DNA of 39,025 bases from a virus: positions 1 through 39,025 of IMG/VR virus record IMGVR_UViG_3300032224_001922; one strand, 5' to 3'. The stretch's first letter is position 1. Each line of letters opens with the position of its first letter. Under the pieces are notes generated by a model. The model was not told the origin of the DNA and did no database searches. It was given only the letters and a program-made list of their open reading frames with translations. The position numbers and the translations under genes are program-made. This document shows positions 1,929 through 34,481 of this stretch, piece after piece.

Positions 1929-2882
1929 ATGAAAAAGTTTCTCACACTAACCGTATTTATACTATTTTTAACTGGTTGTTCTACCGTTATTCCTGGCAAA
2001 CAAGTAAGTATCGCACAAGATGCAATTGCCAAACAAGAAAAGAAAATAGATAGTACATCTGATGAATTAGTCAAAAATGATAAGGGTAAAAGAATACAAA
2101 CCGCAGTATTAGCCCAAGGTATTCAATATTCATTACAACAAGTAACAAATACATCTATTCAAGTAGAAACTGCAAAGAATCTAAATGAAAGAGTTATTAG
2201 CATTGTAGGTTCACCACATTTGGATGAAATTAAAAGAATCAAAGCTACAATTGATTTACTCAATTCATCTATAGAAGAAGAAAGAAAGAAGGGTGGAGAA
2301 TTATTGGGTCAAAGAGATAGTGTAATTGATAAATTACAAAAAGAAAAAGAAGAATTAAAGAGTCAATATGATGACCAACTTTGGCAAATGACTGATAAAG
2401 CCAAAGAAGTTGCCAAAGATTCTGATGAAAAACAAGCAACCATTGATAGTATGGGTGGTATGTTTGGTTTAAATGCAGTTTTCTGGGGACTTAAAAAGTT
2501 TTTCTTTAGTGCTTTAACCGCAATTGTTATATTTGTTGTAATATTTGCTTTATTAAGAATATTAGCAAGTGTACATCCAGCTGCTGGTGCAGCATTTAGT
2601 ATATTCAATATGATTGGTTCTGGAATATTAAGTTTGATTAAAGGATTAACACCAAAAGCATTTGAATTGGCTAATTTCACATCAAAAGACAAAGTTGATG
2701 AATACAAATCACCACTTACTAAGATTGTTGATGTAATTCAAGAACTTAAAGAAAAACAAAAAGAATCACCAAAAAAATCTTATGTTTTAACTGAAATATT
2801 GAAGAGATTTGATAATGAAATGGATAGTCATGAAAAAGATTTGATTGATGATATCTTAAAAGAACAAAAGTGGATAAAGTAA
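1929..2882 (+). CDS. Coiled-coil membrane lipoprotein
   Basis: The 317-residue protein starts with a classic lipoprotein signal (MKKFLTLTVF, hydrophobic core, lipobox FLTGC with Cys17), so the mature N-terminus is probably lipid-anchored. Residues about 20-175 are polar and helical, with heptad-like stretches rich in E, K and Q, consistent with a coiled coil. Residues about 185-240 hold two hydrophobic segments (FFFSALTAIVIFVVIFALL, and one around SIFNMIGSGILSLI) that should cross a membrane. The C-terminal 70 residues are charged. A lipid anchor plus internal membrane helices is odd and could span the periplasm, as in superinfection exclusion or lysis proteins, but no family is recognised. 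Confidence 0.75.
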   Translation: MKKFLTLTVFILFLTGCSTVIPGKQVSIAQDAIAKQEKKIDSTSDELVKNDKGKRIQTAVLAQGIQYSLQQVTNTSIQVETAKNLNERVISIVGSPHLDEIKRIKATIDLLNSSIEEERKKGGELLGQRDSVIDKLQKEKEELKSQYDDQLWQMTDKAKEVAKDSDEKQATIDSMGGMFGLNAVFWGLKKFFFSALTAIVIFVVIFALLRILASVHPAAGAAFSIFNMIGSGILSLIKGLTPKAFELANFTSKDKVDEYKSPLTKIVDVIQELKEKQKESPKKSYVLTEILKRFDNEMDSHEKDLIDDILKEQKWIK

Positions 2883-11646: not shown

Positions 11647-12447
11647 TCAAAAAAATTCACCAGTTATAACATCTTTTGTAGATACTTCAATTTTTTGAAT
11701 TTCAGGAGTCATTTTGTCAATATCAGGATATTCAGATTCAATTGGATGTTTGATATTATTCAAAATGTGTTTTTTATCTTTTTTGTTTGTTGGCAATACA
11801 TAGATGTATCTTAGTTTCTTTAACTTCTTTTTAATCCAAAATGTTTTACCAATAGTCTTTTTTAGGTTTTCAACATCATTACTACCATACTTTTCAGTTA
11901 AAGTTCTACTATGAATCCAATTATAATTGGGAGGACCATCCAAACTTACAACGGAATTTTCATATGCACAAATTTCTTTTGCGTCTTGATATAACCAATT
12001 AGTTGCTTGATAGATTTTACCTGAATGTCCTTGTTCTGGATCAGCATAACTAATTAAACACTTAATATCAGGTCTATTTTGACGCAACCAATCAAAACTT
12101 TTGCCCAATGAATATGATTCAATATTCTTACCATATCCATCCGCAATCCAAAGTCTTGTTAGTTCAAATACTTGTTGAGGTTTAATAACAGTACATATAC
12201 TAGATGCACTGTCTCTACCAACAGGATGACCATATATAATAGCCCCAATCAATTTTTCACCTGCATCAAAATGTACATTGATATCAGTATACTGTTTATA
12301 ATATACACCTAAAGCAACACTACACATGGTCCATCTATGTGAATAATGATTCTTCACAATGATATCTTTTGCTACTTTTTTAGTTACTTCTCTAATAACT
12401 ACATTGGATGTTACTACAAAATTTTCTTCAGACATAATATGATTCAA
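11647..12447 (-). CDS. Mom-like DNA adenine modification enzyme
   Basis: The 266-residue protein matches the Mom family, GNAT-fold enzymes that turn adenine into N6-methylcarbamoyl-adenine in phage Mu DNA and shield it from restriction. Family hallmarks seen are KNHYSHRW (32-39), GAIIYGHPVGR (68-78), ELTRLW (95-100), SYADPEQGHSGKIYQ (133-147) and ATNWLY (148-153). The C-terminal 100 residues are basic and could bind DNA. The gene overlaps the preceding 1241-codon restriction-like gene by 20 bases (8 if ATG 12435 is used). No com-like translational activator is recognised. Recognition sequence and chemical product are unknown. Confidence 0.85.
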   Translation of the reverse strand: MNHIMSEENFVVTSNVVIREVTKKVAKDIIVKNHYSHRWTMCSVALGVYYKQYTDINVHFDAGEKLIGAIIYGHPVGRDSASSICTVIKPQQVFELTRLWIADGYGKNIESYSLGKSFDWLRQNRPDIKCLISYADPEQGHSGKIYQATNWLYQDAKEICAYENSVVSLDGPPNYNWIHSRTLTEKYGSNDVENLKKTIGKTFWIKKKLKKLRYIYVLPTNKKDKKHILNNIKHPIESEYPDIDKMTPEIQKIEVSTKDVITGEFF

Positions 12448-15400
12448 TGATACTAATCTGAGAATCAGATAACTTCAAGTATTTATATAGTGATTCATTT
12501 GTCCATTCTTGATTTAAATCAATAGACGGAAGATTATATACCACAGTATTTGTATTAAATCCACTCCATTGTGTAACATCAATAATGAATTGATAAAACT
12601 TCAATTTGAGAATATTAGTCAAATTCTTTGCTTGTTGTTCATTATCAACACAATTATAAATAGCATGATGCGTTCCAGTACAATTACTATCATACCAAGG
12701 ATTCAATCCACCAGTTCCAATTGAAATGAATACTTTAAACTGATTGTAATCAGGAATACTCTTAATAGGCTTGCCATATTTAATTGTATTTTGGTTATGA
12801 CTAACCCTTACTGTATAAATATGTTTGTTATCAATATTCAATTCATCAGAATCAATCATGTCATTGTGTTCTTTTGAATGATAATGTCCCTTCTTGTATG
12901 AGAAATCAAACTTCTTAACACGATTATTAAAAATCACATCATTAAATACACCTTGAATATCTGAGTTGAATACTGTTGGAATACAACTATCAATATCAAA
13001 TTCAACGTCACTAATTACAGTTTTATTTTTTGACATACATTCAACTTTTGTTGGGTGTGACTTCTTAATTTTACGATACAAGAAATAACAAGTATGTTTT
13101 GAATATTCAATAAAATCCTTTTGCATAGAATTGATATTCAAATATTCCAATTGATTGATCTTGATCATCTTTGGAAAGAATTGATTCTTCATGGAATTAT
13201 AAATCATCCAATTGGGGCCACTCAATCCAACAATGTATCCACCATCTTTTACAAGACCGTGTTGACGTTCAAAAAATACATCAAACTTATCAGTTTCTTT
13301 GATTGGAGGAAATGAAACAATAACGTCAAATTCCTTGGTGATATTATGAGTCAATGTATTTACACGAATGACATTATCACTGTATCCATTTTGGTTATAA
13401 CGTAACTTACTTAGAATAACATTACGTTGTTGAATCTCAAACGCATAGATCATATTCTCAATGATATGCTTTTCACGTTGTTCTGGATTAACAATGATGT
13501 TTTCAAGACCTTTCATCAGTTTGTTCTTGATAGCAATCAAAATTGAACCAGAACCACTAGAAGTATCTGCAAACTTCTTGGTTAAGTCAGTAAATTCAGA
13601 ATCAGGAATCAAATCAACCAACTTGGTTGCTTGCGCAACTGTCAAATACTTGTCACCATATTCCTGAATTGAATAATCATCTTCAGTAAGATAATTAACA
13701 ATCTTTTCAGGATTTTCCTTGGCAAATTGATTGAAGAATACAATTTTTTGATTTAGTTGCATCTTATCAACAACATAAAGATCCATGATCTTAATATAAG
13801 TCTCAATATCAACCTTATTGATCATTTCAAATTCTTCACAGATAACGTCATTCTTACGAAGTTCCATTATCAATTCATGATACGTATTGAACTTGAAATT
13901 GGTCAAAATACACGCCCAGGGCCAATTAGAAAGAAGAAATTGCGCCTTCAATTCAGGATCTTTTTCCTTTTTAGTCTTTTTGCCTGTAATCTTTACTTTG
14001 AGATCCTTATTTTTTCCGGTATTAATACCATTACCAGTAAGATCAGCAATAAAATCATTGACCTTTGGTTTCTTAATAAATGTAGATAGATTATCAACAA
14101 GATCTTTTACTTCACTGTTAAAGTTGGTGATAACACCACTAGTAGTAAAGTTCTTGATACCCATAATATCAATAAACTGTTGATGCAATTGTTTGATAAA
14201 GGTATTAGGAGAATCCAATTCAACAAAATTAAACCCATCATTACTGATTTGAACAGGTGATGACTTCAAACGTTTTTCTAGAATAACCTCATAACTCAAC
14301 TTCTTATGAAGATGACTATAGTGTACTGATGTAGAATACATCTCCAACATACGTGACGGTAGAGTGTCAATTACAATTACCTTCTTACGGTCAGGTCCAG
14401 CAGTACGGCAACGATAACTGGTCTGAATATAATTAGCATATGACTTAGTATCATCACTGTGAATGACACAATCACACAAACGTAGAGTCACACCAACACG
14501 ACATTGATCAACAACAATGATAATAGACTTCTTTTCCTTTGTAGGCATGAAGTCACTATTCATTTTTGCCAACAACTTCTTATTGTTAGATTCCAACTTA
14601 GAATTGGTGATGTGAATATTATAATTATCTGAAATGGTTGGAATTGAATACAACAGTTCCCGCAACTTTTCTTGTGTAGGAATCTTATCTACTGTAATAA
14701 GAATAGAACGTGGATTATGCATCAGAATAGGGCTACCATCCATTGCAATGTCAGATCCAACACCAAACATCTTACGATAGAAGTTATAAATTGCCAACTT
14801 ATACTTGAATTCATCATCTTCAATGGTAAATGCCTTTGACCAAGTGAAAAATTCATTCTTAGTGAAATAATTGCCAAGGTTCTCCTTAAGAAGTTCTGTA
14901 GCATTCAAACCATACCAATTAATTGTAGGAAATTGTGTATAACGTGCATCAACGGACTTATACGTCTGTTCATCTTCCATATCATACAAGTCAGTGTTTT
15001 CAACGTTGAATGATCCAAGAATCAGATTCTTTTCAGGTGTTGCAGATGATCCAAGAACATACTTGAACTTAAGTGTACAGAGTGCTTCTTTAACTTTGTC
15101 AGTTTCAGCACCATAATGTACTTCATCAATGATGACTACATCAAAAGAATAATTAGAGAAGTTCTTGAACTTGGGTTTGTCAAAATCCTTAAAATCTTGA
15201 AGTGAGACCAAAACAAAGTTTATACTGTCAGACTTAAGTATAATTTCTTTAATATTGTCATGTGAAACATTAATCACATTCCATCCTTCAAAAACAGTAT
15301 AATTGTTGATTGTAGCTTCCCACTGAGCATTCAGAATAGGAAAGTGGGTAAGAAGAAGAATATTCTTAGCATTTAACTTCTTAGCCATATAACAACAAGT

Positions 15401-16153
15401 AATAGACTTACCAGACCGTGGCAAATGATTGAACAAATAGCTAAGAGACTTGTTCTTAGTGTTATTGTCAAAGTATGCAGCACAGTTATTATGTGCATTA
15501 ACTTGATGTGGCATCAAATCAAGAACTGCTCGCTCACCACGGATGTATTCATTGTAATTGTCATTATCAAAGTTTACGTCACTAAACACTTCAATCAGCT
15601 TATTGAAAATCTGACTAATGTCTTTAAGATCAATGATAATTACCTTGTTACGAAGTTCTTTGATGTATGACGGTGCAGAAGATAGAGATAATTCATTCTT
15701 ATCCTTGACAATTGCACCATAATAAATATTGAACTTTTTGTATCCGTCCATGGTTTCAATCAAACGAAGACCATCCATTTCCAAGTCAGACCATGTGGTT
15801 GTGTTGGTGGAATTAAAGTTCTTAATCTTGGAACTGAACGCAAAGATTGTTTCTGAATTTGGTTCAATGCCAAGGATGTCAATACGACCACTTGACTTGG
15901 TGCCAAATGAAACGTTCTTGATGTTAGTTACGGTTTGATTCTGTTCAATGAGGAAGATTTGATCCTTGACCCCAAAATTAAAGGTTGACAGATCAATTTT
16001 GGACAGAATTGACAACTTGATGACAGCTTCAACAAATTTACCAATTTCAGATTCAGAACATTGAGAAATCAAAGTCTCAAAGGTTCCGTTGAAATTGGTG
16101 AACTTGGAAATGTCCTTGGTCTTGAGAAAATCTTTAACTAGTGTCTCAGTCAT
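12428..16153 (-). CDS. Nuclease-like/SF2 helicase/adenine methyltransferase-like fusion protein
   Basis: This 1241-residue protein has the layout of single-polypeptide restriction enzymes. Residues about 85-115 hold a PD-(D/E)xK-like segment (GRIDILGI, then FAFSSK) in which the usual Glu/Gln before Ser-Lys is Ser. The SF2 ATPase follows, with Walker A PRSGKS (245-250), DEVH (343-346), SAT (370-372) and motif VI QTSYRCR (577-583). An Eco57I-like methyltransferase region has motif I ADTSSGSGS (862-870), but motif IV is SFPPI (947-951) instead of (N/D)PP(Y/F). The C-terminal 250 residues resemble a target-recognition domain. It shares an operon with the Mom-like gene. Helicase activity is likely; cutting and methylation are doubtful. 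Confidence 0.85.
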   Translation of the reverse strand: MTETLVKDFLKTKDISKFTNFNGTFETLISQCSESEIGKFVEAVIKLSILSKIDLSTFNFGVKDQIFLIEQNQTVTNIKNVSFGTKSSGRIDILGIEPNSETIFAFSSKIKNFNSTNTTTWSDLEMDGLRLIETMDGYKKFNIYYGAIVKDKNELSLSSAPSYIKELRNKVIIIDLKDISQIFNKLIEVFSDVNFDNDNYNEYIRGERAVLDLMPHQVNAHNNCAAYFDNNTKNKSLSYLFNHLPRSGKSITCCYMAKKLNAKNILLLTHFPILNAQWEATINNYTVFEGWNVINVSHDNIKEIILKSDSINFVLVSLQDFKDFDKPKFKNFSNYSFDVVIIDEVHYGAETDKVKEALCTLKFKYVLGSSATPEKNLILGSFNVENTDLYDMEDEQTYKSVDARYTQFPTINWYGLNATELLKENLGNYFTKNEFFTWSKAFTIEDDEFKYKLAIYNFYRKMFGVGSDIAMDGSPILMHNPRSILITVDKIPTQEKLRELLYSIPTISDNYNIHITNSKLESNNKKLLAKMNSDFMPTKEKKSIIIVVDQCRVGVTLRLCDCVIHSDDTKSYANYIQTSYRCRTAGPDRKKVIVIDTLPSRMLEMYSTSVHYSHLHKKLSYEVILEKRLKSSPVQISNDGFNFVELDSPNTFIKQLHQQFIDIMGIKNFTTSGVITNFNSEVKDLVDNLSTFIKKPKVNDFIADLTGNGINTGKNKDLKVKITGKKTKKEKDPELKAQFLLSNWPWACILTNFKFNTYHELIMELRKNDVICEEFEMINKVDIETYIKIMDLYVVDKMQLNQKIVFFNQFAKENPEKIVNYLTEDDYSIQEYGDKYLTVAQATKLVDLIPDSEFTDLTKKFADTSSGSGSILIAIKNKLMKGLENIIVNPEQREKHIIENMIYAFEIQQRNVILSKLRYNQNGYSDNVIRVNTLTHNITKEFDVIVSFPPIKETDKFDVFFERQHGLVKDGGYIVGLSGPNWMIYNSMKNQFFPKMIKINQLEYLNINSMQKDFIEYSKHTCYFLYRKIKKSHPTKVECMSKNKTVISDVEFDIDSCIPTVFNSDIQGVFNDVIFNNRVKKFDFSYKKGHYHSKEHNDMIDSDELNIDNKHIYTVRVSHNQNTIKYGKPIKSIPDYNQFKVFISIGTGGLNPWYDSNCTGTHHAIYNCVDNEQQAKNLTNILKLKFYQFIIDVTQWSGFNTNTVVYNLPSIDLNQEWTNESLYKYLKLSDSQISIIESYYV

Positions 16154-29681: not shown

Positions 29682-29825
29682 ATGGGTAGAAAGAAAAAAT
29701 ATATAACCAAAGAAGAAAAATGTCAATCAAATCGTGATAAGTTTATGCGATATTATTGGAAAAATGTAGATAAAATTAGAAAACAAAATTTAAAAAAATA
29801 TTATGATAAAAAATCAACCATATAA
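29682..29825 (+). CDS. Small basic protein, possible N-terminal part of HNH gene
   Basis: A 47-codon frame encodes MGRKKKYITKEEKCQSNRDK and then FMRYYWKNVDKIRKQNLKKY with a short tail. The basic YYxKNxxKIRxxN pattern is common at the N-terminus of phage HNH nucleases. It overlaps the next frame by 23 bases, so the two may be separate genes or one gene broken by a frameshift in the A-rich junction. Confidence 0.5.
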   Translation: MGRKKKYITKEEKCQSNRDKFMRYYWKNVDKIRKQNLKKYYDKKSTI

Positions 29826-30567
29826 AAAATTGAATTTAATAGGCAAAAAATTTGGGAAATTAACAGTAATTGATTATGAAGGAATTATAAATAAAAGAAG
29901 TACATGGCAATGTTTATGTGAATGTGGTACTACAAAAAGTGTAATTGGCACAAATTTGAAAAGAGGAAATACAAAATCATGTGGATGTAATTTTTCACAA
30001 ACAATAAAATATAATTTCAAAAATTTAACAAATCAAAAATTTGGCAAATTAATGGTGTTAAGAAAAACAGAGGAATATACTAAAACAAGAGGGATTATAT
30101 GGGAATGTTTATGTGAATGTGGTGGAATTATTAAATTACCAACAAATGCATTGACAAGTAAAAATAACACATCATGTGGAAACAAAAAAATTCATGCTCC
30201 AAATGGTAGATTTTACAAAGATTTGGTTGTAGGTGAAATTCCAATTTCTCATATAAATGCTATAAAACAAAACGCTATAAAAAGAAATATTCCATTTGAA
30301 ATAGACAATGAGTATTTATGGGAATTATTTTTAACACAAAATAGAAAATGTGTTTTATCAGGAGAAGACTTAACTTTTACAAAAAAATATCAAACAGGAA
30401 GAAATGAGACAACTGCGTCTCTAGATAGAATTGATTCTAATAAGGGATACATAAAAGGTAATATTCAATGGGTACATAAACACGTTAATAAGATGAAATC
30501 TAATAAAAGTGATTATGAATTTTTAAATTGGTGTAGGAAATGTTATTTACACAGTTTAAACAATTAA
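29803..30567 (+). CDS. HNH homing-type endonuclease with two zinc-ribbon repeats
   Basis: The 254-residue protein contains two copies of a DNA-binding unit (GKKFGKLTVI, WQCLCECG, a TKSCGC end; then KFGKLMVL, WECLCECG, a TSCGN end) and a C-terminal HNH-like nuclease (KCVLSGEDLTF, ASLDRIDSNKGY and NIQWVHKHVNKMKS). The Asp-Arg-Ile-Asp segment and the later His/Asn residues fit catalysis. The gene runs plus in a minus-strand region, as expected for a mobile homing gene. It is the probable free-standing type, since no intron or intein is visible around it. Confidence 0.83.
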   Translation: MIKNQPYKKLNLIGKKFGKLTVIDYEGIINKRSTWQCLCECGTTKSVIGTNLKRGNTKSCGCNFSQTIKYNFKNLTNQKFGKLMVLRKTEEYTKTRGIIWECLCECGGIIKLPTNALTSKNNTSCGNKKIHAPNGRFYKDLVVGEIPISHINAIKQNAIKRNIPFEIDNEYLWELFLTQNRKCVLSGEDLTFTKKYQTGRNETTASLDRIDSNKGYIKGNIQWVHKHVNKMKSNKSDYEFLNWCRKCYLHSLNN

Positions 30568-31068
30568 TTTTTTGCCATTCAAAAAGCCATCAATGTTTAA
30601 TTTTTGATTAAGAATTCTAAGTTTAATACCAGATTCTTCCATCATAGTTTTAGATATTTTAGATAAATCTTCCCAATCTGAATGTTTCATCTCTGGCCAC
30701 ATAGAATGAATTACAATGTCATTTATACCACTCTGTATTATAGACTTCATACAATTGTTACATGGCAACCCATTTGTATAAAGAGTTGATCCCAACGTTG
30801 AAATTCCAAATCGTGCAGCTGTTAATATACTATTATGTTCCGCATGAACTACATACTTATATTTTGTTTCTCTATTGAGATATCTATCTTGAGAATCTGA
30901 TACTCCGATAGGAAATCCATTATAACCAGTGCTAATTACACGATTATCCTTTACAATTACAGCTCCTATTTTACTAGACGGATCTTTACTTTTAGTAGCC
31001 GTCAAATAAACCATTCGCATGAATAGTTCATCAAATCCAGGTGTCTTATAATTTTCAAAAGTATCCAT
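30556..31068 (-). CDS. Deoxycytidylate (dCMP) deaminase
   Basis: This 170-residue enzyme converts dCMP to dUMP for thymidylate synthesis. The zinc site is HAEHNSIL with His-Ala-Glu and LPCNNCMKSIIQSGI (PCxxC); KSKDPSSKIGAVIV and SGTGYNGFP-like (STGYNGFPIG) are the usual substrate-binding segments. An unusually strong Shine-Dalgarno (CGGAGG, 5 bases before ATG) lies in codons left from a truncated copy just upstream. Its end overlaps the plus-strand HNH gene by 12 bases. Confidence 0.93.
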   Translation of the reverse strand: MDTFENYKTPGFDELFMRMVYLTATKSKDPSSKIGAVIVKDNRVISTGYNGFPIGVSDSQDRYLNRETKYKYVVHAEHNSILTAARFGISTLGSTLYTNGLPCNNCMKSIIQSGINDIVIHSMWPEMKHSDWEDLSKISKTMMEESGIKLRILNQKLNIDGFLNGKKLIV

Positions 31069-31186
31069 AAATCCTCCGGTCTTTAACCAAAATTGCTCCT
31101 ATCTTAGTCTTTGGATCTTTAGATTTACTAGCAACCCAATAAACCCCCTGCAGAAACCATTTGTTAAAACTAGTATTGTCTTTCAT
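31055..31186 (-). pseudogene. Truncated copy of dCMP deaminase N-terminus
   Basis: A 43-residue frame reads MKDNTSFNKWFLQGVYWVAS, then KSKDPKTKIGAILVKDRR and stops soon after. It matches the first 40 residues of the intact gene (FMRMVYLTATKSKDPSSKIG and onward) but lacks the zinc site, so it cannot be active. It retains a good promoter at 31194-31222 and its last codons supply the ribosome site of the intact gene. It is probably the remnant of a tandem duplication or recombination with a diverged allele. Confidence 0.75.
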
Positions 31187-31193
31187 TTAACTT

Positions 31194-31222
31194 AATCTAC
31201 ATCATATATATTACACTGTCAA
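31194..31222 (-). promoter_or_regulatory. Sigma70-like promoter for the dCMP deaminase
   Basis: TTGACA (31222-31217), a 17-base spacer and TAGATT (31199-31194) on the minus strand, 8 bases before the truncated frame. The -35 box lies next to the stop of the HD-domain gene. Confidence 0.6.
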
Positions 31223-31981
31223 TTTATATCTATCAACTAAAGTATTTATATTATTTTCTATCATTACAATATAATTACTAGAAGTATATTCATACAACGC
31301 ATAAAACTTATTATCAAGCAACGGTTTTACCAATTTATACCAAAATCCAGGCGTTTTTCTTATTAAATCATCTAATCCATTGTACATATTCAAATTGTGA
31401 TACTTCTGGAATTCATCAAATTCTTGATACAGTTTATCTAGTTTTTGTATATACTGTTCATCTCCCATTTGACTCAACCAATCTCCCAAAGCAACACAAG
31501 CACCTATATGATCTATTTCTAAATTTTCAACCTTTTTAAAATAATCCGTAACCATTATTAAACCACAAATTCTACTCTTTTCATCCTCTGTTAATATATC
31601 ATCAAAATTATTTCCCATGAAATGACATCCACGTTCTACATGCGTATTAATATATTGCGCTCCCGTTCCATCTTCATCTTCTTTTAATTTTAAGAAACCT
31701 ATATCATGGTACATTGTTGCTACAACACCACAAAAAAAATCAAATTCATTTTTCTCTATAATTTGTTTATTTACAATACCGGAATATACATCTAAAAATA
31801 CTGAAGTGCTTGTTAAGAAATGATATAAATCATGATATTTTGTTTCTAGTTTGTGGTATCTATCATCACCAAAATTACAAATGTTAATTAAGTAATTATA
31901 AAGTACTAATAGTCTTTCATCTTGTTTATTAAACAGTTGTAATGATGTATTTTTAATACTTCTTGGTGTTGCAAATTTCAT
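31211..31981 (-). CDS. HD-domain phosphohydrolase, PDE-like
   Basis: The 256-residue protein has an HD-superfamily metal site: KYHDLYH (48-54), YHDIGFLK (91-98) and VTDYF (144-148). The HDxxH spacing at the first site resembles the YHNxxH signature of class I cyclic-nucleotide phosphodiesterases, and other HD enzymes hydrolyse dNTPs or (p)ppGpp. The gene follows the ankyrin-cyclase and a 70-residue gene on the same strand, which suggests that it degrades the cyclase product. The substrate is inferred, not shown. No regulatory domain is attached. Confidence 0.8.
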   Translation of the reverse strand: MKFATPRSIKNTSLQLFNKQDERLLVLYNYLINICNFGDDRYHKLETKYHDLYHFLTSTSVFLDVYSGIVNKQIIEKNEFDFFCGVVATMYHDIGFLKLKEDEDGTGAQYINTHVERGCHFMGNNFDDILTEDEKSRICGLIMVTDYFKKVENLEIDHIGACVALGDWLSQMGDEQYIQKLDKLYQEFDEFQKYHNLNMYNGLDDLIRKTPGFWYKLVKPLLDNKFYALYEYTSSNYIVMIENNINTLVDRYKLTV

Positions 31982-31995
31982 AATTTTTTACTTTA

Positions 31996-32208
31996 TCATA
32001 TGAAATAAAATAATCCTTTTGAATTATAAACTACAATTTTAATCTTGGTATCATCAATTTTAGTGACACCCATTCTATCTGTAATTTGAAATGGATCTGG
32101 ATGATTACTCATAGGTGCAGCCATAACTCTATCTTTAATTTTATATATATCCAAATCTGTATTAACAATACTTGGGTGATATTGTCTTCCTAAAGGCATC
32201 ATTTTCAT
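31996..32208 (-). CDS. Hypothetical 70-residue protein after the cyclase
   Basis: A small mixed protein (MKMMPLGRQYHPSIV...) with a hydrophobic C-terminal strand and no known motif. It starts in a 4-base overlap with the cyclase stop, so it is translated with it. It could bind or regulate either enzyme, but nothing in the sequence shows this. Confidence 0.55.
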   Translation of the reverse strand: MKMMPLGRQYHPSIVNTDLDIYKIKDRVMAAPMSNHPDPFQITDRMGVTKIDDTKIKIVVYNSKGLFYFI

Positions 32209-33980
32209 ACTGGTTTATTTGTTGTTGGTTCTGCTTTTTTTACTCTACTTGATGGAAATGCTTTGTTGCCAAAGTCACTGCCATGTAAACTATATAAGTG
32301 CATCACTACACCATGTTTTACAATCACATCTCCTAAATCATTCACTAATACATATGCCGGTCTGTCATATTTTAACATTACATCTGAACTAACCAATAAA
32401 TGATTTGTTTCACCCGCATCCATTACTCTTTGAGCATAATTGATGCCGTCACCACTTATATTCAAATTACCATTGATGTCTTCCATTGGAATTACTGGAC
32501 CACAATGTACACCCATTCTCATTTGTAAGTCTGGTCTATCCTTTACTGCCTTAGCTATAGCAATTGCACAATTCATTGCATCTTCCAAATAAGTAAAGAA
32601 TCCCATTACCATACCATCACCAGTAGGTAATATAATTAACTTTTCAAGAGCGTTGGCTGTCTTATATTGCATTGTTGCTTTAACCAATACACCCAAATCT
32701 TTACATGCTTTCTTTTGTTCATCCGTAGTCTTCTTACTATAAGCCACAATGTCCATAAAGAATATAAAACCATCTTGTTCTACATCCAATTGTAATCTAC
32801 CTGATTTGACTTCTATATCAACTTGTTCAATTTTCTTGACAATTTGTTTAACGGGTTTAATGACTTCTACTTTCTTTTCTTCTTTCTTTTCTACAACTGG
32901 AATATCTTTAAGTTTCAAGAAATCTTTCCAGTTAATCTTCTTTGCAGGTGCATCTTTCTTTTTTGGTTCTTTTGCAGTTTGTTCTGCTTCTAGTTTTTTT
33001 ATTGCTTCTTCTTCACGATTACGCTTTTCAATGAATAACGCAATTTGTTTCTTAACTTCATCTGTAATATAAATGTTTACATCTTTACTGTTACCACCTG
33101 TGTCATGTTTTTTCTTTCTTAACGCACCTTTGGCTTGTAAATAACTTTGCATTTCTACGTTACCTGTCTTGAATGCGATGTCTAACGGAGCAATTTCTCC
33201 CTTAAAATCTGCACCATTAACATTTGCACCCAAATGTACCAAAAACTCCGTCATATCAACATCATTAGCATTAACAGCATAATGTAATGGCATCCAACCA
33301 TTCTTTTCATCTCTACAATTAATTTTACCGTCTTTATCAAAAAATGATTGTACACCTTCAAAATCACCTGTTTCAGCACAAAAATGAATATTAACACCAC
33401 CAGAAGATTTAGCACCGTTTTTATTTAATAACTTAACAATTTCACCTCTATTAACATTGGATAACACATCTATTGGATTGTTTTTGCCTAAGAAATCTTT
33501 CTTGTTGACATCTGCACCCTTAATGATTAAATATTCAACCAAGTGTTTTTGTCCGTAATTAACGGCATAATGTAGTGCAGTCCAACCTTTACCAGCGTCA
33601 ACTTCATTGATATCTTGTTTTTTACTCAACATTTCTTCAATAGAAACAATATCACCATTCTTAGCAGCCAAATGAAAACTGCTGCCACTACTATACTTCC
33701 CTCCTCTTTGTTGCAATAATTCTGAAATAGGTTTAAATCCCTTTTGTTCTGATATATCTAATGCGGTATTTTTGCTTGTCCAATCTTTTACATTTACATC
33801 CGCACCACGATTTAATAACAATTTTACTATTTCTATTTGATTTTCTTCTACTGCAACAACTAATGGCGGATTGCCAGTGTCATCATCTCTTTGATTAACG
33901 TCTACTTTTTCTTTTTCTATACAATTGTAAACATTATCAAATAAACCTCGTCTTATATGTGTAAAAATATTAATTGCCAT
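32205..33980 (-). CDS. Ankyrin-repeat class III nucleotidyl cyclase
   Basis: The 591-residue protein has about eight ankyrin-type repeats in residues 15-285 (units such as GWTALHYAVNYGQKHLVEYL), a Lys/Glu-rich coiled linker (300-390) and a class III cyclase domain (about 395-575). Catalytic elements are present: metal Asp410 in FFMDIVAYS, Asp455 in PTGDGMV, Asn514 and Arg518 in GINYAQR. The LPTGDGM, MRMGVHCGPV and DLGDVIVKHGV blocks match a bacterial cyclase subgroup. The usual Lys and Asp/Cys that choose ATP or GTP are not evident, so the product could be cAMP, cGMP or a cyclic pyrimidine. A GAGGA ribosome site precedes the ATG. Confidence 0.88.
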   Translation of the reverse strand: MAINIFTHIRRGLFDNVYNCIEKEKVDVNQRDDDTGNPPLVVAVEENQIEIVKLLLNRGADVNVKDWTSKNTALDISEQKGFKPISELLQQRGGKYSSGSSFHLAAKNGDIVSIEEMLSKKQDINEVDAGKGWTALHYAVNYGQKHLVEYLIIKGADVNKKDFLGKNNPIDVLSNVNRGEIVKLLNKNGAKSSGGVNIHFCAETGDFEGVQSFFDKDGKINCRDEKNGWMPLHYAVNANDVDMTEFLVHLGANVNGADFKGEIAPLDIAFKTGNVEMQSYLQAKGALRKKKHDTGGNSKDVNIYITDEVKKQIALFIEKRNREEEAIKKLEAEQTAKEPKKKDAPAKKINWKDFLKLKDIPVVEKKEEKKVEVIKPVKQIVKKIEQVDIEVKSGRLQLDVEQDGFIFFMDIVAYSKKTTDEQKKACKDLGVLVKATMQYKTANALEKLIILPTGDGMVMGFFTYLEDAMNCAIAIAKAVKDRPDLQMRMGVHCGPVIPMEDINGNLNISGDGINYAQRVMDAGETNHLLVSSDVMLKYDRPAYVLVNDLGDVIVKHGVVMHLYSLHGSDFGNKAFPSSRVKKAEPTTNKPV

Positions 33981-34062
33981 AATTTATTTCCTCTCTATTT
34001 AAATTGTTTATTGACATTATGATTAATAACAATTTATGAAAATAAAACTAGTCAATTATATT

Positions 34063-34083
34063 AAGTTATAATAAGTATAACTT
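34063..34083. promoter_or_regulatory. Operator-like palindrome upstream of the cyclase gene
   Basis: AAGTTATA and TATAACTT are perfect complements with a 5-base spacer. The site lies 83 bases ahead of the cyclase start and just upstream of a TTGACT (minus strand, 34055-34050), a position suited to an activator or repressor. No convincing -10 follows that box. Confidence 0.45.
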
Positions 34084-34097
34084 GAAAACTTTATTAG

Positions 34098-34481
34098 TTA
34101 TTCATTTTTTTTAAATCTGCTTAGGTCTAGATTTGGAAGCGGTTTTTCTATATTAAGACCAGCTAATCTTTCATTTTGAACCACTAATTTATTACCGCTT
34201 ACAACTTTTCCATCCACTATATCATATATGAAGAATACTGTTTTAGTTAATCCTACACGAATTATTCTACCAGGCTTACCGTCAACATATACCACGTCAT
34301 CTTCTTTATAATCATTTCCAATAAACATAAACAATGCGGCAGCCAACTTTTCAAGGCTGGATTTGAATATTAATATAACTAAACCAGCCAAGAACATCCA
34401 GACGTATTTACCCGTCATATCCTGTGCAGTTGATTCCAATACTTGTTGAGAAATTACGTGTGTTACGTTTGTATCTATCAT
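34098..34481 (-). CDS. MscS-like small membrane protein
   Basis: The start at ATG 34481 is preferred to 34529 because ATATTTATT lies 8 bases ahead of it; the product is about 127 residues. A hydrophobic helix (YVWMFLAGLVILIF, residues 26-39) and an Ala-rich second helix (KLAAALFMFIGN) are followed by a beta domain with DVVYVDGKPGRI, TVFFIYDIVDGK and LVVQNERLAG. That matches the pore helix and beta domain of MscS channels without the usual extra helices or a cyclic-nucleotide-binding domain. It precedes the cyclase gene on the same strand and may share its transcript. Channel activity is inferred. Confidence 0.65.
   Translation of the reverse strand: MIDTNVTHVISQQVLESTAQDMTGKYVWMFLAGLVILIFKSSLEKLAAALFMFIGNDYKEDDVVYVDGKPGRIIRVGLTKTVFFIYDIVDGKVVSGNKLVVQNERLAGLNIEKPLPNLDLSRFKKNE

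Follow-up and report, generated by a model that had tools for sequence, protein, structure and literature searches.

Why would a phage encode a nucleotide cyclase and a small membrane protein side by side? The question is raised by a virus genome fragment from IMG/VR (record IMGVR_UViG_3300032224_001922), of which the whole stretch of 39,025 bases (~30% G+C) was analysed and is referred to here as the window. The relatives of the window are large tailed phages, seen in metagenomes alone. A reading made from the letters of the window only had proposed a phage cyclic-nucleotide system of four consecutive minus-strand genes, and all four open reading frames (ORFs) are found in the order claimed: an MscS-like mini-protein, a class III nucleotide cyclase with ankyrin repeats (the ankyrin-cyclase), a protein of 70 amino acids (aa) whose start does overlap the cyclase stop, and an HD hydrolase. 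Bacterial cyclic nucleotides serve both physiology and anti-phage defence, phage-encoded cyclases have hardly been studied, and a system of few small genes makes phage second-messenger signalling during infection directly testable. We consider it somewhat probable that the locus represents a phage-encoded second-messenger module consisting of the MscS-like protein and a class III cyclase, with an HD phosphodiesterase where present.

Linkage of the MscS-like and cyclase genes

Of the new findings, the firmest is that in these phages the gene for the MscS-like mini-protein is strictly linked to a class III cyclase gene. A scan for the cyclase domain yielded 66 viral loci, and a separate scan seeded with the MscS-like alignment yielded 70. 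At 66 of the MscS-like loci the contig extends more than 45 bases beyond the gene, and 66/66 of these have a class III cyclase gene downstream, in phages that share ancestry; the remaining four loci have 45 bases or fewer. The linked gene encodes the ankyrin-cyclase at 64 of these loci and a second type of cyclase, AC2, at the other two (contigs of L004 and L100), where the ankyrin-cyclase is absent. In L061, two extra genes stand between the MscS-like gene and the ankyrin-cyclase.

The commonest order, observed at 43 loci of the L008 type, is a lipoprotein gene (c2), the MscS-like gene, the ankyrin-cyclase, the 70-aa gene and a Mom-like DNA modification gene. At these loci the module is near the major capsid gene and on the strand opposite to it. 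The window and L002 instead have the MscS-like/ankyrin-cyclase pair beside genes for a deoxycytidine monophosphate (dCMP) deaminase and a 2-oxoglutarate (2OG) oxygenase, and the pair has therefore been kept in two genomic settings. The 70-aa gene is conserved after the ankyrin-cyclase in most relatives. In most relatives, the gene immediately before the MscS-like gene encodes the lipoprotein (e.g. L008 5432-6397 (+)), which has a coiled coil and predicted transmembrane (TM) helices; its homologue in the window is ~31 kb from the MscS-like gene and inverted.

The median ratio of nonsynonymous to synonymous substitution rates (dN/dS) is 0.070 for the ankyrin-cyclase and 0.064 for the MscS-like gene, compared with 0.14 for the capsid gene. 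Chance or mis-called ORFs are ruled out because the genes are kept across dozens of contigs with a dN/dS of ~0.07. The conserved core is thus the MscS-like gene and the cyclase gene, and the HD protein is outside it. The neighbourhood of these genes in other phage genomes had been named as a check on the proposed system; the MscS-like and cyclase genes are linked throughout, but the HD gene is mostly not near the ankyrin-cyclase.

In L062 (8661-9998 (+)) and L064 (8635-9989 (+)), the ankyrin-cyclase is followed by a gene for a PAS-domain protein that is probably anchored in the membrane. In these two contigs, an outer-membrane-barrel gene and the PAS-domain protein replace the 70-aa gene or the AC2-HD genes.

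The ankyrin-cyclase and its substrate

In the ankyrin-cyclase, a charged linker joins the ankyrin blocks to the class III catalytic domain, and no TM helix is predicted. Pfam recognises the ankyrin repeats clearly (Ank_2, E=1.6e-34), and they form three blocks of ~95 aa each, with a mutual identity of about 28-34%. The cyclase domain of the window scores 24.0 bits on PF00211 against a cut-off of 21.9 (E=3.2e-5), and it is above this cut-off in 16/16 viral records searched, the window included. The metal-binding aspartates D410 and D455 and the transition-state residues N514 and R518, which the sequence-only reading had described as an intact metal pair and an Asn/Arg pair, are present in the window and invariant in 14 phage sequences, the others being 77-94% identical to the window. 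The ankyrin region is also conserved, at 74-96% across the phages. This conservation fits a slowly changing partner, which may be a host protein.

The substrate of class III cyclases is selected by residues that recognise the base, namely Lys/Asp or Lys/Thr for ATP and Glu/Cys for GTP. When aligned to the structure 3mr7, the corresponding positions of the ankyrin-cyclase are L451 and N507, so that neither the ATP-selecting nor the GTP-selecting residues are present and neither ATP nor GTP can be assigned as the substrate. These positions define the substrate of a cyclase, not its membership in the class III fold. Bacterial class III domains with (I/L)PTGDG...N(V/I)(A/S)GxGIN motifs are ~38-44% identical to the phage domain and carry similar base-selecting residues. 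The ankyrin-cyclase falls in this TGDG-type group, with base-selecting residues that are neither ATP-like nor GTP-like, which makes its product of interest beyond phages.

The PADLOC models of the Pycsar cyclase PycC give a best match of E=0.02 (12 bits) to the ankyrin-cyclase domain. The positive control, AC2, is hit by ten of the PycC models, the best with E=2.8e-36, and the ankyrin-cyclase was therefore rejected as a PycC. Pycsar defence had been named earlier as one setting in which class III cyclases act; a Pycsar identity of the locus is disfavoured by these scores and by the 16 phage records, in which no effector with a PF00027 domain was found. Among cultured phages and plasmids, no relative of the ankyrin-cyclase domain was found.

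The MscS-like protein

The MscS-like protein has one predicted TM helix followed by a putative MscS-type beta-domain. PF00924 matches the window protein with E=0.018 and 15.6 bits, below the curated cut-off of 20.2 bits, and it matches 13/13 members of the family, all below the cut-off, the best with E=0.011. In hhalign, the protein aligns with TM3 and the beta-domain of Escherichia coli MscS (residues 108-178) with P=0.0013 and a probability of 18.6%. A low-confidence model (predicted local distance difference test score, pLDDT, of 55) has structural matches to MscS and MSL10 with Z of 5-7, mixed with unrelated beta-domains; Flycatcher1 is also among them. The earlier call of a mini-channel of the MscS type is weak for each protein singly, but the Pfam match is family-wide, and hhalign and some of the structural matches point the same way. 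The cytosolic cage of MscS is absent and no cyclic-nucleotide-binding domain is recognised in the protein. Relatives in cultured phages were not found, nor was any literature on phage MscS proteins.

The HD protein and the second cyclase

The HD protein had been compared with cyclic-nucleotide phosphodiesterases (PDEs) for its YHDLYH site. This site is present (Y49-H50-D-L-Y-H54) and the relatives carry YHNIDH, the YHN form being seen in the HD proteins of L006, L018 and L033. The residues Y49, H50, H54, H92, D93, H114 and D167 are common to the phage proteins and to Verrucomicrobiota homologues of 24-30% identity, and all of these except H114 are invariant across the phage and bacterial homologues; the YHNxxH...HD...D residues overlap those of the HD superfamily, so they are not exclusive to class I PDEs. 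The HD protein of the window alone has no Pfam match. NCBIfam NF045583 (Npun_R2479 HD metalloproteins) matches it with E=1.2e-10 and a score of 41.1 bits compared with an equivalog cut-off of 400, which makes the phage protein a relative and not an equivalog; the L018 protein is matched with E=1.3e-14.

One bacterial member of the HD family falls just short of the PDEase_I cut-off of 24.8 bits, with a score of 24.5. When a profile of the phage and bacterial HD proteins is compared with the PDB, most matches are class I PDEs, with marginal E-values of about 0.05 and above. A structural model (pLDDT 65; predicted template-modelling score, pTM, of 0.66) ranks PDE4, PDE9 and PDE1-like chains at the top with Z of ~4, a value too low to set a true match apart from chance among helical folds, and gives no significant Foldseek match. 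No deoxynucleoside triphosphatase (dNTPase) families are listed for the HD protein and PDE-type matches dominate. These motif and profile matches, and weakly the fold, link the uncharacterised bacterial family of the HD protein to the class I PDEs, and the phage protein is probably a cyclic-nucleotide phosphodiesterase, though it may act on dNTPs alone. No relative of the HD protein was found in cultured phages and plasmids, and a match in a fecal phage polymerase gene (E=0.1) was judged to be due to chance. A literature search on YHNxxH and Npun_R2479 found nothing.

In the relatives, the HD gene is paired with the second cyclase. It directly follows AC2 in 16/16 contigs other than the window that have sequence upstream of HD, and an outer-membrane-barrel-like gene usually precedes AC2; the barrel is called by eye from a signal-peptide-like start and a beta-rich sequence, with no Pfam family matched. 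In AC2, two predicted TM helices flank an intervening region; the cyclase domain is canonical (PF00211, E=2.8e-27), and its best PDB relative is CyaB 3r5g (E=5.6e-34). In class IIIb cyclases, Lys and Thr at the selectivity positions predict the use of ATP. AC2 has K341 and T416 at these positions, as in class IIIb adenylate cyclases, and is thus predicted from its residues to be a membrane-anchored class IIIb cyclase that uses ATP.

In most genomes with the ankyrin-cyclase, the HD gene is not nearby. The window has no trace of the barrel gene or AC2, and only 14 bases separate the 70-aa stop from the HD start. In L007 the order is ankyrin-cyclase, 70-aa gene and barrel gene, and in L018 an apparent internal-deletion remnant of the 70-aa gene lies between the ankyrin-cyclase and the barrel gene. 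Because these two contigs keep the 70-aa gene or its remnant before the barrel gene, the ancestral order was likely MscS-like, ankyrin-cyclase, 70-aa, barrel, AC2 and HD, with the barrel gene and AC2 lost from the window; an AC2 of the window phage could also lie outside this fragment. The ankyrin-cyclase and the HD gene of the window are thus what remains where the barrel and AC2 genes of the relatives are absent. The idea that they make and erase one signal keeps its basis in the intact catalytic residues, purifying selection and PDE-linked HD protein, but as a pair it is not supported by the relatives, in which HD goes with AC2.

Possible mechanism and alternatives

In the proposed second-messenger module, the ankyrin domain would meet a partner during infection and the soluble ankyrin-cyclase would make a 3',5'-cyclic nucleotide. 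The signal and the mini-channel may act jointly on the envelope and physiology of the host, and three routes can be envisaged: the signal could gate or tune the channel complex, the channel could condition the cyclase, or host cyclic-nucleotide-binding proteins could serve as the receptor. Where an HD protein is present, it would act as a cyclic-nucleotide phosphodiesterase and determine how strong the signal is or how long it lasts. In the relatives it is encoded with AC2, which would be a second, membrane-anchored sensor cyclase using ATP; in the window, where AC2 is missing, its target would be either the product of the ankyrin-cyclase or signals of the host. The narrower proposal that the ankyrin-cyclase, through its product or by contact, opens or closes the 127-aa mini-channel and so gives the phage control over host membrane permeability is rather doubtful; the messenger controlling the mini-channel would possibly be a non-canonical cyclic nucleotide.

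The gene linkage, the intact catalytic residues and the purifying selection indicated by the sequences form the observed layer of this mechanism, and we infer enzymatic activity, the identity of the signal, channel function, the receptor and the benefit to the phage. The cyclic-nucleotide system of the earlier reading is supported by the residues, the selection, the 66/66 linkage and an HD protein of a PDE-linked family, and not supported as regards the pairing of the ankyrin-cyclase with HD. The signal might also mimic, jam or saturate host signalling or defence, as that reading proposed.

Several observations weigh against a second-messenger module. The relationship to MscS is weak for each protein taken singly, and since the phages share ancestry the linkage counts are not independent events. 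With L451 and N507 at its selecting positions, it is possible that the ankyrin-cyclase is inactive. PF00233 (PDEase_I) is unmatched by the phage HD protein in four phage records, and in five neighbourhoods inspected the bacterial HD relatives are not beside obvious cyclase genes. The cyclic-nucleotide-binding domain PF00027 was found in 0/16 phage records of up to 174 kb, the window included, which leaves a host protein, the MscS-like protein or an unrecognised factor as the receptor.

The lack of PF00027 matches in the phage records, together with nine PF00027 matches in the Verrucomicrobial genome that carries an ankyrin-cyclase, also fits a reprogramming of the host via host receptors only. 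Both cyclases would then raise cyclic AMP (cAMP) or another cyclic nucleotide monophosphate and switch CRP-type regulators, as in the regulatory roles proposed for pelagiphage adenylate cyclases near type VIII secretion system (T8SS) and FecR genes (PMC9599517), and the MscS-like protein would be an unrelated osmotic or lysis-timing protein. We regard this as unlikely, since a cyclase gene is downstream of every assessable MscS-like gene, even where AC2 is substituted or the module is relocated. The same strict pairing of a cyclase with a small membrane protein could reflect Pycsar-like superinfection exclusion or a phage-carried defence, in which damage or a rival phage, sensed by the ankyrin repeats, would switch the cyclase on, with the MscS-like protein as the membrane effector that closes the cell down. 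Pycsar couples a cyclase with a TM effector (PMC11224242), and the placing of the module and the capsid gene on opposite strands in contigs of the L008 type points the same way. However, the match of the cyclase to PycC is poor next to that of AC2, the mini-protein is without a recognisable cyclic-nucleotide-binding domain, the ankyrin and channel sequences are highly conserved while competitor sensors often diversify, and a self-activating killer inside a lytic phage would need restraint; such a role is quite unlikely.

In a counter-defence role, the HD protein would destroy host defence signals (cyclic UMP, cyclic CMP or others) and the ankyrin-cyclase would be a weak decoy or substrate sink. 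Phage enzymes that destroy defence nucleotides, such as Apyc1 and Acb1, are known, and in the window HD is retained while AC2, the cyclase that usually accompanies it, is missing. Invariant metal and transition-state residues would not be needed in a decoy, the HD gene of the relatives adjoins a cyclase predicted to make cAMP and most ankyrin-cyclase genomes have no HD gene nearby, all of which makes this role very unlikely. The unusual residues L451 and N507 and the strongly conserved ankyrin region would suit an ankyrin-cyclase that is a non-enzymatic scaffold around a phage membrane complex. This is most improbable, given that D410, D455, N514 and R518 are invariant and that the bacterial relatives with 38-44% identity in the cyclase domain keep the TGDG and N/R motifs.

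Origin and host

Flavobacterium and Microcystis phages have capsid proteins with ~50% identity to those of the relatives. A full-length ankyrin-cyclase with 69% identity, the same catalytic motifs as the phage sequences and 80% G+C at third codon positions is also encoded in a contig (L072 4867-6651 (+)) of a Verrucomicrobiales metagenome-assembled genome (MAG). This contig has a high G+C content; the ankyrin-cyclase is downstream of a ligA-like gene and a kdsB-like gene is also present, both named by eye. The MscS-like gene was not found in this MAG. In the tree of cyclase domains, the L072 sequence groups with the phages L061-L064, inside the phage sequences, with a support of 98/98. No other genome in a sample of 289 from the phylum and 145 relatives of the MAG has a full-length ankyrin-cyclase at the thresholds used, and the view of it as a general Verrucomicrobial gene was rejected on this basis. 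The ankyrin-cyclase has likely been exchanged between phages and Verrucomicrobiota, in either direction, and L072 may have been placed in the MAG through misbinning. Neither the capsid likeness nor the MAG copy settles the host of the phages.

Layout of the locus and neighbouring genes

The coordinates of the locus, of the domains of the ankyrin-cyclase and of the lipoprotein homologue are given in Table 1. The window also encodes a phage-type DNA helicase, an ATP-dependent DNA ligase, a dCMP deaminase and a 2OG-Fe(II) oxygenase. The placement of T4-type late promoters (TATAAATA) is inconsistent, and a Foldseek search of viral structures gave no significant match.

Table 1. Positions in the window of the genes and domains discussed in the text
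Feature	Position	Strand	Details
MscS-like mini-protein	34098..34481	-	127 aa from ATG at 34481 (best start)
Ankyrin-repeat class III nucleotide cyclase	32205..33980	-	591 aa
Ankyrin region of cyclase	33117..33968	-	residues about 5-288; three repeated blocks, Pfam Ank families
Cyclase catalytic domain	32256..32783	-	residues about 400-575; D410, D455, N514, R518; L451, N507
70-aa protein	31996..32208	-	ATG overlaps cyclase stop as ATGA; translationally coupled
HD hydrolase, Npun_R2479-related	31211..31981	-	256 aa; Y49, H50, H54, H92, D93, H114, D167
Lipoprotein/coiled-coil membrane protein (c2 homologue)	1929..2882	+	module membership in window uncertain

Next to the locus, a short truncated dCMP-deaminase-like start (31055-31186 (-)) overlaps the full dCMP deaminase gene (30556-31068 (-)), and a similar sequence is present in L002. 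A lone plus-strand ORF among the minus-strand genes (29803-30567 (+)) is HNH-endonuclease-like by eye and has a homologue in the same place in L002. Further away, the gene at 12428-16153 (-) encodes a ResIII/SNF2-type helicase of 1241 aa whose C-terminal region is methyltransferase-like, and it overlaps by ~20 bases the gene for a homologue of the Mom-like DNA modification protein (11647-12447 (-)). The two are possibly an anti-restriction pair.

Comparison with known systems

Phage adenylate cyclases have been described in the T8SS/FecR clusters of pelagiphages, where regulatory roles have been proposed for them (PMC9599517). Adenylate cyclases are annotated in HTVC008M (AGE60353) and Melnitz (QZI94833), and the pelagiphage cases are annotations only. 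The cyclases of pelagiphages and methylophages resemble those described here in being class III cyclases of T4-like phages beside envelope or outer-membrane genes, and AC2 of the relatives matches the HTVC008M and Melnitz cyclases directly with 35-38% identity. Theirs are located in curli/T8SS-FecR clusters, whereas no curli genes are recognised beside the cyclase here. Unlike the pelagiphage cyclases, the main cyclase here is an ankyrin fusion without a predicted TM helix, and its partners are an MscS-like protein and sometimes HD.

Pycsar couples a cyclase with a TM effector (PMC11224242). The likeness to PycC with PycTM or PycTIR is in a class III-type cyclase that adjoins a small membrane protein; the genes described here differ in being carried by a phage, in the ankyrin fusion, in a best PycC match of E=0.02 and in having no recognised cyclic-nucleotide-binding effector. 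With the MscS family, the mini-protein appears to share a TM3-like helix and a beta-domain, which align with the E. coli protein, but it has only 127 aa and one predicted TM helix, is without the cytosolic alpha-beta cage and scores below the Pfam cut-off. The phage HD protein has the YH[DN]xxH, HD and distal Asp residues of NF045583 and the class I PDEs (PF00233), but reaches 41 bits compared with 400 on NF045583 and is unmatched by PF00233. Among bacteria at large, the cyclase domain has its closest relatives in the Verrucomicrobiota cyclases of G023 and G177 (~38-44% identical), which differ in being fused to TolB-like/TPR regions, with no ankyrin repeats seen.

No report of a phage ankyrin-cyclase, an MscS-like/cyclase pair or a PDE-like partner was found in a partial coverage of the literature, which makes this weak evidence. 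Phage cyclases are already known from the pelagiphages, and the pair of an MscS-like protein with an ankyrin-cyclase appears to be a new form.

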